Shown one piece after another: positions 39,695 through 51,103 of a DNA stretch of 64,000 bases (positions are counted from its first letter, which is position 1; the number at the start of each line of letters is the position of its first letter). The stretch spans positions 5,246,450-5,310,449 of the forward strand of contig NZ_CP129212.1 of NCBI RefSeq assembly GCF_030413175.1, given 5' to 3'. This stretch comes from Bradyrhizobium roseum. GTDB taxonomy: Bacteria > Pseudomonadota > Alphaproteobacteria > Rhizobiales > Xanthobacteraceae. A model generated the notes under the pieces. That model was not told the DNA's origin, ran no database searches, and saw only the letters and a program-made list of their open reading frames with translations. Made by a program: the position numbers and the translations under genes.

Positions 39695-40450
39695 ATGTCA
39701 GTCATTCGTCTCAACCGCATCGTTCTCACGGGCGCCATGCTGTCGCTGGCCGCCCTGGCCGGCGGTTGCTCCTCGATCGACCGCCTGTCGCAGATCGGCG
39801 AAAAGCCGAAGCTGACCGAGATCGAGAACCCGACCACGCAGCCCGGCTACAAGCCGGTGCAGATGCCGATGCCGAAGCCGGAACAGGCTTCCTACAACGC
39901 CAACTCGCTGTGGCGAAACGGCTCGCGCGCGTTCTTCAAGGACCAGCGCGCGGCGCGGATCGGTGACCTTCTGACGGTGACCGTCAATATCACCGACAAG
40001 GCTAACATCGCCAACCAGACCCAGCGCAGCCGCTCCAACAAGGAGGATTCCGGCATCACCGATTTCATCGGCGCCCAAACCTTGGGCGCGCAGGCACAGA
40101 AAATTCTGCCCGGCCGCATCCTGACCGCCGATTCCACCACCTCCAGCGACGGCAAGGGCTCGGTCAACCGCCAGGAAGCGTTGCAGACCAACGTCGCGGC
40201 CGTGGTCACGCAGGTCCTGCCGAACGGCAATCTCGTGGTCGAGGGCAAGCAGGAGATCCGGGTCAACTTCGAAATCCGCGAACTGATCGTCGCCGGCATC
40301 GTTCGCCCCGAGGACATCCAGAGCGACAACACCATCGATTCCTCGAAGATCGCGCAGGCCCGCATCGCCTATGGCGGCCGCGGCCAGATCACCGACGTGC
40401 AGCAACCCCGCTACGGCCAGCAGGTGATGGACGTGCTGCTGCCGTTCTAG
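39695..40450 (+). CDS. flgH: Flagellar L-ring lipoprotein FlgH
   Basis: This encodes 251 residues. A lipoprotein signal with lipobox LAGGC (Cys25, followed by SSID) is present. The L-ring domain includes SLWRNGSRAFFKDQRAARIG and DLLTVTVNITDKANIANQTQ, and it ends LVVEGKQEIRVNFEIRELIV and GQQVMDVLLPF. It sits in the outer membrane. It is the last gene of the operon. Confidence 0.97.
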   Translation: MSVIRLNRIVLTGAMLSLAALAGGCSSIDRLSQIGEKPKLTEIENPTTQPGYKPVQMPMPKPEQASYNANSLWRNGSRAFFKDQRAARIGDLLTVTVNITDKANIANQTQRSRSNKEDSGITDFIGAQTLGAQAQKILPGRILTADSTTSSDGKGSVNRQEALQTNVAAVVTQVLPNGNLVVEGKQEIRVNFEIRELIVAGIVRPEDIQSDNTIDSSKIAQARIAYGGRGQITDVQQPRYGQQVMDVLLPF

Positions 40451-44521: not shown

Positions 44522-44881
44522 ATGTCTCTGGAATCGAACGAAACCGGCAACCTGATCGGCAGCGACAAGGTCGAGGGAACCGCAGTCTATGGCTCCGACA
44601 ACAACAAGATCGGCTCGATCGAGCGCGTCATGATCGACAAGAAGAGCGGCAGGGTGTCCTACGCCGTGCTCTCCTTCGGCGGCTTTCTCGGCATCGGCGA
44701 CGATTACTATCCGCTGCCTTGGCAATCGCTGAAATACGATACTTCGCTCGGCGGTTACGTTACCGGCGTGACGGAAGCGCAGCTCAAGGGCGCGCCGCAT
44801 TACGGCAACGACAATACCTGGAACTGGGGCGACCCAGCCCGGGCCCGCGCCGTCAACGACTATTACGGCGTCGCGATCTGA
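44522..44881 (+). CDS. PRC-barrel domain protein
   Basis: This encodes 119 residues from ATG 44522, with GGAGGAGAAA upstream. The PRC-barrel core is LIGSDKVEGTAVYGSDNNKI followed by GSIERVMIDKKSGRVSYAVL and FGGFLGIGDDYYPLPWQSLK. The C terminus is Trp/Asn-rich. Such proteins are often general stress or RNA-processing linked. It is monocistronic and follows emrA by 118 bases. Confidence 0.88.
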   Translation: MSLESNETGNLIGSDKVEGTAVYGSDNNKIGSIERVMIDKKSGRVSYAVLSFGGFLGIGDDYYPLPWQSLKYDTSLGGYVTGVTEAQLKGAPHYGNDNTWNWGDPARARAVNDYYGVAI

Positions 44882-45007
44882 TCGCAGTCAAACTTGATAT
44901 TCGGAGGGCCCGCCTCAAGGGTGGGTCCTCCATCAAGGCTGGCACATTCGTCTGCCCGCAGCGAACCTTTTGCGCTGTTCCGCGTTAGGGGCCTGTGGAG
45001 GCAGAGC

Positions 45008-45088
45008 ATGGGAAAATTCTTCTTGTTCATAATCGCCCTGAGCGTCGCCGTTTTGCTGGCAATGAGCGCCTACATCATTAGCCTGTGA
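45008..45088 (+). CDS. 26-residue single-pass membrane microprotein
   Basis: ATG 45008 is preceded by GGAGG at 7 bases (TGGAGGCAGAGC). The product MGKFFLFIIALSVAVLLAMS with AYIISL is almost one membrane helix. The ideal ribosome binding site in an otherwise gene-free spacer is the main support. No family is recognised. Confidence 0.5.
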   Translation: MGKFFLFIIALSVAVLLAMSAYIISL

Positions 45089-45501
45089 TGATGGGCAGCT
45101 TAGCCCGGACTTGGCTATGACGAGCCGGAAGCGGTGCCGGTGTGCAAGTTTGTCGCAGGAACGGACGCGCCCGGCATAAGGCGCCCAGCGTCAGCACGCG
45201 GCGATTAGTTAACGCGACCGAGGATAGCGCGGTCCGGCATGCGTCGTTTTCTGCCGCGCATGCAAACTTTGTCATCGCTGACCACATCCTCGATTAACCA
45301 TTCATCCCCATCGCAAGCATCGTGCGCCTGCCGACGATGCGCGCAGTTTGCTTGGATATGACGATCTGTCTCTCCGCGCCCTCTTTCTTTTTCGAAGGAA
45401 CTGGGTAGCATGATCCGCGGGTGAAATGGGCTGTGCAACGCAACGCGCAGTTGTCATTCGCTCGCCCGGGCAGGCGAGCGGATATTCCAGAGACAGTAGT
45501 A
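45089..45501. other. Gene-free stretch before the SspB-like gene
   Basis: The 413 bases contain a lone TTAACCAT (45294-45301, CtrA half-site form) and a hairpin CGCTCGCC-CGGGCA-GGCGAGCG near 45461-45482, about 20 bases before the next start codon. No gene with a ribosome binding site was found on either strand. Confidence 0.4.
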
Positions 45502-45921
45502 ATGGGCACGACAGGTCGCGGTGTACCGGATATCCCGCAGGCGCGGGGTGTGACCATCAGCCGTGCGTTATGGCTTGTCATGGCGCTGATAATGCAGGCC
45601 TCGCCTGCGTTCGCCGAACCATGCAGCAAACCGGCGGCGAGGGCCAAGATTGTCGAAGCGCTCCCGCGGGCCTCGGAGCAGCGGCCGGTCAATATCACGT
45701 TTCGAACTCACGCCGAAGGCGTGAAACTTTCGCTTGGCCTCAAGTCGAAATATCCAGACGACATGACCATTATTCTGCAGCACGACTTCGAGCAGTTGAA
45801 TATCAGGGACGACCGCTTCGAGGTTTTGCTGCGCTTGATGGGGGCGCGGGAACGCCTTTCCATACCTTTCGCCGCGATCAAGGCGTTCTGGGATAAATCA
45901 GAACTGAAGTGCTCCGACTGA
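45502..45921 (+). CDS. SspB-like domain protein with an apparent signal peptide
   Basis: This encodes 139 residues from ATG 45502; GTG 45550 would give a 123-residue form starting right at the signal peptide (TISRALWLVMALIMQASPAF, cleavage after AFA). The domain that follows matches the SspB substrate-binding fold. PVNITFRTHAEGVKLSLGLK is followed by SKYPDDMTIILQHDFEQLNI, then DRFEVLLRLMGARERLSIPF and AAIKAFWDKS. Normal SspB is a cytoplasmic ClpXP adaptor with a C-terminal ClpX-binding tail. Here the tail is missing and the protein ends LKCSD. Cys in EPCSK and LKCSD could pair, fitting a periplasmic location. Confidence 0.72.
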   Translation: MGTTGRGVPDIPQARGVTISRALWLVMALIMQASPAFAEPCSKPAARAKIVEALPRASEQRPVNITFRTHAEGVKLSLGLKSKYPDDMTIILQHDFEQLNIRDDRFEVLLRLMGARERLSIPFAAIKAFWDKSELKCSD

Positions 45922-45925
45922 CACG

Positions 45926-46738
45926 TCACCGCGGCGTCGCGCGCCTGATCAGGGCGCAGAGCCCCGTCATGCGCGCGATCGGATGTTCGACAAACAGGCG
46001 GCAGGACGCGAGCGCGCGATGCAGCGTGTCCGGCGGCGCGGCAGGTTTCAGGTGCGAAGCCAGAACCGCGCCATGGGCATGGCCAAGCGCGCGAGTCGAA
46101 AGCGTCAATGCGTTCAGCCGTCCTTCCCGCTGCAGCGGCACCAGCATGGTCCGCACCAGCGCCAGGTAGCCTGGCCAGTACGCCAGATGTCGGTACATGC
46201 TCGCAATCAATTGCGACTCGGTATCTTCGCCGAACCCGTTCAGTTCCTCGATCAGCGCCGCCACTTCGGGGTCCAGCGCCTCCATCGGCGGCAACTCCGG
46301 AATTTTGGCGCCCGGCGGCCGTGGCGCGGCGCCGGCCGGCCTCACCGCATCTGCCGGCCGCGGCTCGCAATGCGCCAGCAGCGCGGACAGCACGACGAGC
46401 GCCAACGCGTTGGTGTGATGATAGCTGTCGAGTACGTCATGAATGCGCGCGCGTTCGCTGTCGTCCACGCCCACCGCAAGCAGCGTGTCGGTCGACAAGC
46501 CGGGCCAGTCCGGCAGCGCGATGGTCTGCCTGATGGCTTCGGCATGTAGCGGCGCGTCGCCGAGATAGAGCGGACGAACGGCGGACCATGTCCATGGCAG
46601 CGCGCCCGGCATGGTCGCGAGGTGGCGCCAGATCAGGTTGACGACGCTGGTGCCCAGAACGTTGCGAATGTCGGCATAGATGTCAGCGATGTCACCTCGC
46701 GCTTCGGATTCGAGAACTGACGGGACGCTTTCTGCCAT
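45926..46738 (-). CDS. DehI-like (haloacid dehalogenase group I / AhpD-fold) protein with internal duplication
   Basis: This encodes 270 residues. Two related halves are visible: IRNVLGTSVVNLIWRHLATM with PGALPWTWSAVRPLY (about 24-60), and LIASMYRHLAYWPGYLALVR with MLVPLQREG (about 175-205). This pseudo-twofold pattern and the N terminus (ESEARGDIADIYADIRNVLG) resemble DehI-type enzymes. A catalytic Asp could not be assigned. The gene lies 9 bases after the hydratase gene on the same strand. Confidence 0.5.
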   Translation of the reverse strand: MAESVPSVLESEARGDIADIYADIRNVLGTSVVNLIWRHLATMPGALPWTWSAVRPLYLGDAPLHAEAIRQTIALPDWPGLSTDTLLAVGVDDSERARIHDVLDSYHHTNALALVVLSALLAHCEPRPADAVRPAGAAPRPPGAKIPELPPMEALDPEVAALIEELNGFGEDTESQLIASMYRHLAYWPGYLALVRTMLVPLQREGRLNALTLSTRALGHAHGAVLASHLKPAAPPDTLHRALASCRLFVEHPIARMTGLCALIRRATPR

Positions 46739-46747
46739 CAGGCCTGC

Positions 46748-47554
46748 TCAGCTCCGAAATTCGGCGAAGACGGTGCCAAGCCCATCGAGCTCCATTTTCA
46801 CCTTGTCACCCGCCTTGAGCCACACCGTCTTCACGAGGCTCCCTGTCAGCACGATCTGGCCGGCATGCAGCCCCTTGCCCTCGTCGGCGAGATGATTGGC
46901 AAGCCAGGCCAGCGCGTTGTGGGGATGGCCGAGCACGTCGGCGCCGGTGCCGTGGCCGGCTTCCTCGCCGTTGATCAAGGCGCGTCCCTTCACCGTGAGC
47001 AGGTCCGGCGCCTTGCTGCGCGGCACCGCCGTGCCGAGCACGCAGCCGGCGGCGAAGAAATCATCGGCGACCAGCGTCGGCGCGCCCATCGCCTCCCATC
47101 TGATGTAGCGGTCGTCGACGATTTCGATCGCGGGATAGTAGGCCTCGATCGCCTCCATCATCGATTCCGCGGTAAACGGCCCTTCGCCGGGCGACAGGCT
47201 GCGCGCCATCCGCACCGCGATCTCGCACTCGACACCGACGCGAACATAATCGCCTGACCGCAGCGAAGCGCCGCTGTCGTGCACGCCCCTTGCGAACACG
47301 CCGCCGCAGCAGGGATGAGGGATGCCGAGGTATTGCTGCATGACCGGGCTGGTGCAGCCGATCTTGTAGCCCACCAGACTGCCGGTCTGCGGCAACATCA
47401 GATCGTGGACCGCACGCTGGATTTGATAGCCCGAGGCCTCATCGGCCGGAACGAGATCAGGCGGGAGCACGTCCAGCGGCGCGCCCGCCCGGCGGGCGGT
47501 GGCGATCATCTGTGCGGCCGCGAGAGTTTGGTCCATCAGCGGCGGCTTTCTCAT
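46748..47554 (-). CDS. 2-keto-4-pentenoate hydratase / fumarylacetoacetase-family protein
   Basis: This encodes 268 residues; ATG 47536 is an alternative start. MhpD-like sequence includes SGYQIQRAVHDLMLPQTGSL, VGYKIGCTSPVMQQYLGIPH, VECEIAVRMARSLSPGEGPF (metal-binding Glu) and FAAGCVLGTAVPR. It ends HAGQIVLTGSLVKTVWLKAG. It would hydrate a 2-hydroxydienoate from meta-cleavage or decarboxylate a related keto acid. It is the first gene of a two-gene unit with the DehI-like gene. Confidence 0.85.
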   Translation of the reverse strand: MRKPPLMDQTLAAAQMIATARRAGAPLDVLPPDLVPADEASGYQIQRAVHDLMLPQTGSLVGYKIGCTSPVMQQYLGIPHPCCGGVFARGVHDSGASLRSGDYVRVGVECEIAVRMARSLSPGEGPFTAESMMEAIEAYYPAIEIVDDRYIRWEAMGAPTLVADDFFAAGCVLGTAVPRSKAPDLLTVKGRALINGEEAGHGTGADVLGHPHNALAWLANHLADEGKGLHAGQIVLTGSLVKTVWLKAGDKVKMELDGLGTVFAEFRS

Positions 47555-47607: not shown

Positions 47608-48024
47608 CTACTCGTCCCGGTAAACCTTCTCACGCTTCTCGTGGCGTTCCTGCGCTTCCACCGACAGCGTCGCGATCGGACGGGCTTCGAGCCGCTTCAG
47701 CGAAATCGGCTCGCCGGTCTCCTCGCAATAGCCGTAGGTGTTGTCCTCGATGCGTTGCAGCGCGGCGTCGATCTTGGAGATCAGCTTGCGCTGGCGGTCG
47801 CGGGCGCGCAGTTCGATGGCGCGGTCGGTTTCGGAAGAGGCGCGATCAGCCAGATCGGGATGATTGACATTCTCTTCCTGGAGGGTCTGCAGGGTGATCT
47901 TCGATTCTCTGAGGATCTCGTCCTTCCATGCCAGCAGCTTGGCGCGGAAATAGTCGCGCTGCCGATCGTTCATGAAAGGCTCTTTTTCGGAAGGTCGATA
48001 GTTCTTCAACTTTTCCAAGGCCAA
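47608..48024 (-). CDS. dksA: DksA-family RNA polymerase-binding regulator
   Basis: This encodes 138 residues from TTG 48024 (LALEKLKNYRPSEKEPFMND); ATG 47973 would remove the conserved PSEKEPF segment. The coiled coil reads QRDYFRAKLLAWKDEILRES then DLADRASSETDRAIEL, with the Asp-Ala-Asp-like tip. The zinc region keeps one Cys (NTYGYCEETGEPISLKRLEA), the form with reduced Cys number seen in alphaproteobacteria. It modulates RNA polymerase together with ppGpp. Confidence 0.9.
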   Translation of the reverse strand: MALEKLKNYRPSEKEPFMNDRQRDYFRAKLLAWKDEILRESKITLQTLQEENVNHPDLADRASSETDRAIELRARDRQRKLISKIDAALQRIEDNTYGYCEETGEPISLKRLEARPIATLSVEAQERHEKREKVYRDE

Positions 48025-49978: not shown

Positions 49979-51103
49979 ATGCCCGGCATCCGTTCGGCAC
50001 GACTGATTTGGGTGGCCTGTGCGGCGCTGATGGCGCTGGCGCTGGCACCCCAGCCCTCGGGCGCAACGTCGCGGATCAAGGATCTCGCCAATATCGAGGG
50101 CGTGCGGCAGAACCAGCTGATCGGCTACGGCCTCGTGGTCGGCCTCAACGGAACCGGCGACACGCTGAACAACATTCCCTTCACCAAGCAGTCGCTGCAA
50201 GCGATGCTCGAGCGCATGGGCGTCAACATCCGCGGCGCCACCATCCGCACCGGCAACGTCGCCGCCGTCATGGTCACCGGCAACCTGCCGGCCTTCGGGA
50301 CGCAGGGCACGCGGATGGACGTCACGGTGTCCGCACTGGGCGACGCCAAGAACCTGACCGGCGGCACCCTGCTCGTCACCCCCCTGCTCGGCGCCGACGG
50401 CAACGTCTATGCGGTGGCACAAGGCTCGCTGGCGATCTCGGGCTTTGCGGCCGAGGGCGCTGCCGCCAGCGTCACCCGCGGCGTGCCGACGGTGGGCCGC
50501 ATCGCCAACGGCGCCATCATCGAGCGCGAGATCGAATTCGCGCTCAATCGCCTGCCCAATGTCCGCCTCGCACTGCGCAACGCCGACTTCACCACCGCCA
50601 AGCGCATCGCCGCCGCCGTCAACGACTTCCTCGGCGTCAAGACCGCCGAGCCGATCGACCCCTCCACGGTGCAGCTTTCGATTCCGGCGGAATTCAAGGG
50701 CAACGTCGTCGCCTTTCTGACCGAGATCGAGCAGTTGCAGGTCGAGCCCGATCTCGTCGCCAAGATCGTGATCGACGAACGCTCCGGCATCATCGTGATG
50801 GGCCGCGACGTCCGCGTCGCCACCGTGGCGGTGGCGCAGGGCAACCTCACGGTGACGATCTCCGAAAGCCCGCAAGTGAGCCAGCCCAACCCGCTGTCGC
50901 GCGGCCGCACGGTGGTGACCCCCCGGTCGGGCGTCAGCGTCAGCGAGGACGGCAAGAAATTCGCGGTCGTCAAGGACGGCGTCTCGCTGCAGCAGCTCGT
51001 CGACGGCCTCAACGGGCTCGGCATCGGGCCGCGCGACCTCATCAGCATCCTGCAGGCGATCAAGGCCGCCGGCGCGATCCAGGCCGACATCGAGGTGATG
51101 TGA
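49979..51103 (+). CDS. flgI: Flagellar P-ring protein FlgI
   Basis: This encodes 374 residues. A signal peptide (MPGIRSARLIWVACAALMAL to SGA) precedes TSRIKDLANIEGVRQNQLIG. It includes GLNGTGDTLNNIPFTKQSLQ and AMLERMGVNI, and ends LNGLGIGPRDLISILQAIKA. It builds the periplasmic P ring with help from FlgA. Its stop overlaps the next start (TGATG). Confidence 0.97.
   Translation: MPGIRSARLIWVACAALMALALAPQPSGATSRIKDLANIEGVRQNQLIGYGLVVGLNGTGDTLNNIPFTKQSLQAMLERMGVNIRGATIRTGNVAAVMVTGNLPAFGTQGTRMDVTVSALGDAKNLTGGTLLVTPLLGADGNVYAVAQGSLAISGFAAEGAAASVTRGVPTVGRIANGAIIEREIEFALNRLPNVRLALRNADFTTAKRIAAAVNDFLGVKTAEPIDPSTVQLSIPAEFKGNVVAFLTEIEQLQVEPDLVAKIVIDERSGIIVMGRDVRVATVAVAQGNLTVTISESPQVSQPNPLSRGRTVVTPRSGVSVSEDGKKFAVVKDGVSLQQLVDGLNGLGIGPRDLISILQAIKAAGAIQADIEVM

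Follow-up and report, generated by a model that had tools for sequence, protein, structure and literature searches.

In canonical SspB, a folded domain recognises the substrate and a C-terminal tail docks on ClpX, as laid out in two papers (PMC13251409, PMC12373786). The alphaproteobacterial representatives of known structure, from Caulobacter (2qaz, 2qas) and Agrobacterium (2nys), share their domain and fold with a protein encoded in Bradyrhizobium roseum, whose gene lies in a stretch of 64,000 nucleotides (contig NZ_CP129212.1, positions 5,246,450 to 5,310,449 of the forward strand; hereafter the window) as an open reading frame of 139 amino acids (45502-45921, plus strand). A preliminary description, made from the letters of this stretch, had seen in it a possible exported relative of the ClpXP adaptor. 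We find that the gene is a paralogue of SspB, that the export of its product is well supported by sequence comparison, and we give about one chance in two to the idea that this product works as a periplasmic, disulfide-locked peptide binder of SspB fold uncoupled from ClpXP. With respect to canonical SspB, the window protein has gained a signal and a flanking pair of cysteines, and has lost both the tail and the tryptophan that follows QF or QY. The same combination of a signal, a cysteine on each side and a missing tail is shown by proteins from Tardiphaga (L120, L121, L123) and from metagenomes (P0128-P0132), the signal and cysteine pattern of the latter being assigned by reading. Unlike the window protein, these relatives keep the canonical GLxGxHH segment and a DPSV-type region, and those of Tardiphaga are found at a different locus, close to the gene for an exported Sel1-repeat protein. 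The fold and the family are already known, whereas the search listings of open-access PubMed Central showed no paper that describes an exported SspB, which is weak evidence by itself.

The SspB domain, its signal segment and its cysteines

The Pfam model for SspB (PF04386) matches residues 64-133 of the protein (45691-45900, plus strand) with an E-value of 3.8e-21 and a score of 76.2 bits, the cut-off being 27, and no NCBIfam model matches the reading frame up to E 1. In this line, the structure predicted for the single chain is closest to 2qaz, 2qas and 2nys, and the three core stretches of SspB that had been named from the sequence are all present. Ahead of the domain we find a signal segment (residues 17-38; 45550-45615, plus strand), whose hydrophobic stretch covers about residues 22-38 with AFA at its end, and which reaches a Kyte-Doolittle mean of 2.1 over an 11-residue window. 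The domain is flanked by two cysteines, Cys41 ahead of it (45622-45624, plus strand) and Cys137 behind it (45910-45912, plus strand), both of them invariant in 26 close and 20 diverse sequences. The protein ends six residues past the Pfam match, and the ClpX-binding tail is absent. On the profile match, the fold, the signal ending in AFA, the two cysteines and the missing tail, the preliminary description was therefore right.

These features were followed in 54 copies picked by homology, here called exported (30 close and 21 more distant ones from Bradyrhizobium, and three from Tardiphaga), and in 55 canonical SspB sequences. The Bradyrhizobium sequences that were read represent 51 of the at least 59 copies in the genus, eight not being included, and the counts leave out a Tardiphaga copy with an in-frame stop (L122, genome G373), a sequence in the wrong frame (L029) and duplicate copies. 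The most hydrophobic 11-residue window within the first 45 residues has a Kyte-Doolittle mean of 2.05-3.63 in the exported copies, in comparison with 0.74-1.55 in the canonical ones. An AxA-type end, taken as a loose pattern, precedes the first cysteine in every exported copy (54/54), and a lipobox before this cysteine in none (0/54). Cysteines occur on both sides of the domain in all 54, with exactly two per protein in 52 and one extra cysteine in the signal region of the other two (L057, L061), whereas the 55 canonical sequences have no cysteine at all. Conserved cysteine pairs suit an oxidised, exported protein, and both the signal segment and the cysteine pair speak against a cytoplasmic location. 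The ClpX-docking tail, with its RLDRFRKK-type end, is found in 54 of the 55 canonical sequences and in no exported copy. Similarly, the tryptophan after QF or QY is kept by all 55 canonical proteins and, by pattern, by a single exported one (L076), where it is located near the C-terminus in a non-equivalent place. Altogether, a comparison in which 54 of 54 copies differ from 55 canonical ones supports well the proposal of an SspB fold that carries a signal and would be uncoupled from ClpXP.

The gene evolves under purifying selection as a protein, its first codons excepted (see below). Over 26 close orthologues, four others with a deletion being excluded, the ratio of nonsynonymous to synonymous polymorphism (pN/pS) was 0.21 for the SspB core, 0.35 for residues 39-62, 0.11 for the last six residues and 0.53 for the signal.

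Paralogy, distribution and origin

The host genome, a single contig of 7.32 Mb, encodes one further SspB of 172 amino acids that ends in AEVVRLDRFRKK, and the gene of this canonical protein is found directly downstream of a transfer-messenger RNA (tmRNA) gene. Since an ordinary SspB is thus present elsewhere in the same genome, the window gene is a paralogue. Of the 265 genomes surveyed in the genus, at least 59 carry a copy, which rules out a lone oddity or a misread reading frame; in 30 of them the copy is close (69-100% identity), and in at least 29 it is more distant (38-60%). When 296 genomes of the family were surveyed, second SspB copies were also found in Tardiphaga, one of which has an in-frame stop (G373), and two matches each were obtained in another Tardiphaga genome (G449) and in two genomes of other genera (G289, G401), where the second match is a candidate only. 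A survey of the order, with at most 14 candidates scored per genome, gave no second match at E 1e-10 outside the window's genus and Tardiphaga among 297 genomes. Signal-bearing SspB, for which the preliminary description had proposed a survey of other Rhizobiales, is thus seen in Bradyrhizobium and Tardiphaga.

In a tree from a quick search over 112 columns with no bootstrap, to which exported sequences contributed 34 rows and canonical ones 27, the exported sequences make up one side of a branch with a value of 97 in the Shimodaira-Hasegawa-like approximate likelihood ratio test (SH-aLRT). A grouping of the exported copies of Tardiphaga with the canonical SspB of the same genus was not rejected by the approximately unbiased test (p-AU 0.127), and it is these copies that retain the GLxGxHH segment, which the exported copies of Bradyrhizobium are without. 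The exported branch may have had a single origin or perhaps two, in the lineages of Bradyrhizobium and Tardiphaga. The notion of a mobile gene was rejected, as matches were obtained in only 11 of 72,556 plasmid and one of 50,697 phage records, none of them over more than 80% of the protein and all below 60% identity. The matches listed span residues 65-133, as expected of ordinary SspB, with one plasmid record outside the list.

Two alphaproteobacterial tmRNA genes occur in the host genome (5903113-5903470, plus strand, and 7053954-7054312, minus strand; L194, L195), whose predicted tags differ: ANDNYAPVAQAA for the gene just before the canonical sspB, and ANDNVALNEVRLAA for the other. Across the genus, two tmRNA matches are present in 41 of 265 genomes, which comprise 19 of the 59 with the exported gene and 22 of the 206 without it (Fisher p 1.7e-4). 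No link to a second tmRNA is claimed, because these counts are confounded by kinship, with 14 of the 19 genomes belonging to the 30 that have a close copy, and because many genomes have either the gene or a second tmRNA without the other.

Start codon, upstream DNA and neighbouring genes

The start codon given in the preliminary description is probably wrong, which leaves the main conclusion unaffected. Codons 1-16 (45502-45549, plus strand) fall in a copy of a dispersed intergenic repeat (45483-45548, plus strand), so the N-terminus as first read is mostly repeat. This copy is 76-77% identical over 57-66 bases to three other places in the genome, and the core of the repeat was seen in 28 distinct contexts in 968,630 bases of sampled sequence, nine of them away from the start of this gene. 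Codons 2-16 show a pN/pS of 1.12, synonymous and nonsynonymous diversity both being low, and thus no constraint at the protein level. Because codons 1-16 sit in a repeat, translation more probably starts at the GTG at 45550, codon 17 of the original frame, which results in a likely coding sequence for the exported paralogue of 123 amino acids (45550-45921, plus strand). At codon 17, 23 of the 26 orthologues have ATG or GTG, two have GGG and one has ATT. Against this choice, 29 of 30 orthologues have ATG at codon 1 (L060 has ATT), and four close copies (L058-L061) have lost codon 17 by a deletion, so that the start in some orthologues may be codon 1. Both lengths are found in public records for one orthologue, with versions of 141 (P0090) and 125 amino acids (P0136). 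The signal segment is identical with either start, and a start that skips the signal, a possibility raised at the outset, is not the case for the GTG at 45550. As for the repeat itself, its cores, GTATTCCAGAGAC and GCGTACTGGATNCCCCGC, supply the start region of the gene and occur in related loci (L064, L065, L068, L069, L071, L090, L168, L191), a partial copy is present in the window at 1859-1878, and no likeness was seen by eye, with no alignment, to the consensus of Br-REP1 or Br-REP2 as printed in PMC5082802.

Further upstream we find TTAACCAT (45294-45301, plus strand), which we take to be a CtrA-type site, more precisely a half site. The preliminary description had noted it as a lone element about 200 bases upstream; the distance holds, with 208 bases to codon 1, but the element is not lone: among 30 close orthologues, 27 have it in the 350 bases ahead of codon 1. 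It sits at -268 to -315 in 24 of these 27, often as TTAACCATTAAT, a register that the window copy at -208 does not share. No TTAACCAT was found upstream of 24 distant copies, for one of which the upstream sequence was limited to 85 bases. In the whole window it occurs five times (21467, 36763, 45294, 49758 and 56123), in comparison with 0.31 expected. Closer to the gene, a conserved block, CCCTCTTTCTTTTTCGAAGGAAC (45379-45401, plus strand), has no other match in the genome at up to three mismatches. In the close orthologues, where it is near-invariant, the block consists of CCCTCTTTCTTTTTYGANGGAAC and then TAGCAT and lies about 100-120 bases upstream; the near-invariant DNA of the window spans 45379-45411. 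No Rfam match was obtained up to E 1 over 44880-46000, and no sigma-70-type promoter was found over 45100-46000.

The window gene sits between flgH, for the flagellar L-ring protein (39695-40447, plus strand; Pfam FlgH), and flgI, for the P-ring protein (49979-51100, plus strand; Pfam FlgI). Downstream and convergent lies a gene of the FAA-hydrolase family (46748-47554, minus strand; Pfam FAA_hydrolase), followed by dksA (47608-47976, minus strand; Pfam DksA_N and zf-dskA_traR). The FAA-hydrolase gene keeps this place and orientation in all 33 mapped Bradyrhizobium loci (L062-L094), and dksA follows further on in 31 of them. Many of the stretches end before the flagellar genes; flgH is visible on the upstream side of 12 loci and flgI on the downstream side of 16. 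In two loci (L093, L094) the gene comes about 185 bases after flgH on the same strand. Among 18 genomes picked for being without the gene, flgH is present in 18 and the FAA-hydrolase gene in 16, and in seven of these 16 the gap between both is about 150-315 bases, which indicates that the site also exists empty. When remnants were searched for in 15 such flgH-FAA stretches, with the 54 exported proteins as queries and weaker matches at E 0.03 or more set aside, the best two (L183, L191) matched the repeat and not the SspB core. A protein of 270 amino acids with no Pfam match up to E 0.001 is encoded next to the gene (45926-46738, minus strand), which it adjoins in many loci. The Tardiphaga copies lie within about 3 kb of the gene for the Sel1-repeat protein, which starts with a signal-like segment (L120 and L121 by Pfam; L123 by reading).

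Possible roles of the putatively exported protein

For a periplasmic peptide binder, the course of events would be that a paralogue of SspB gained a signal segment and a cysteine pair flanking the domain, and lost the ClpX-docking tail. The protein would be exported and its signal removed between AFA and EPC, after which the oxidising conditions of the periplasm are predicted to link Cys41 and Cys137 by a disulfide. With less certainty, the SspB fold might still bind short peptide tails that lack structure, with exported or envelope proteins as the new source of such tails, which could be shielded, or presented to a periplasmic protease or an assembly partner. Peptide binding is plausible by extrapolation from the fold, and delivery to ClpXP would not take place, since an exported protein is located where ClpXP is absent. 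A more specific suggestion, which we put forward only tentatively, is that the adaptor of an intracellular protease left the cytoplasm, once or perhaps twice, and was refitted with a disulfide to become a receptor for peptide tails in the periplasm. It would pass envelope proteins that are tagged or unassembled on to a periplasmic protease or to an assembly machine, as an extracytoplasmic counterpart of the SspB-ssrA system. Two points weigh against a periplasmic peptide binder: the AxA pattern used in the comparison is loose, and the ligand site may have changed, as the conserved tryptophan is lost in the exported copies.

The position of the gene between flgH and flgI (about 185 bases after flgH in L093 and L094), the retention of this locus in 33 mapped cases and the frequent TTAACCAT upstream of close orthologues, flagellar genes being under CtrA control, would all agree with a periplasmic helper of the flagellar rings, which binds FlgH, FlgI or other rod or ring parts during assembly. 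We regard this role as unlikely, given that several kb of unrelated genes separate flgH from the gene in the window, that the Tardiphaga copies are located elsewhere, and that flgH persists in all 18 gene-less genomes, where presence of the gene does not go with the flgH locus. Equally doubtful is a signal that stays uncleaved and anchors the domain in the inner membrane, facing the periplasm; the hydrophobicity and AxA measures cannot separate such anchors from signal peptides, but an AxA-type end, if by a loose pattern, stands before the first cysteine throughout.

On the other hand, the retained domain and the canonical SspB in the same genome could fit translation from after the signal, which would produce a cytoplasmic variant of SspB or a rival of the canonical protein for tagged substrates. 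This is very improbable, as the signal segment is present in all 54 copies though its sequence differs among subfamilies, its pN/pS of 0.53 is below 1 and the cysteine pair is invariant. We give just as little credit to a decaying, functionless paralogue: its presence is patchy (at least 59 of 265 genomes), and a stop in the Tardiphaga copy of G373 and the ATT at codon 1 of L060 point that way, but the core has a pN/pS of 0.21 over 26 orthologues, and cysteines and core residues are invariant across subfamilies.

Textbook SspB is a cytoplasmic adaptor. The existence of a conserved, seemingly exported branch implies that this fold was recruited to a further compartment, where it probably acts as a peptide receptor. 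The public name of such proteins, 'ClpXP protease specificity-enhancing factor SspB', is probably misleading as to their function. For studies of binding, they make available a natural SspB domain that is likely to contain a disulfide, and adaptor-type selection of substrates in the periplasm becomes a question that can be tested.
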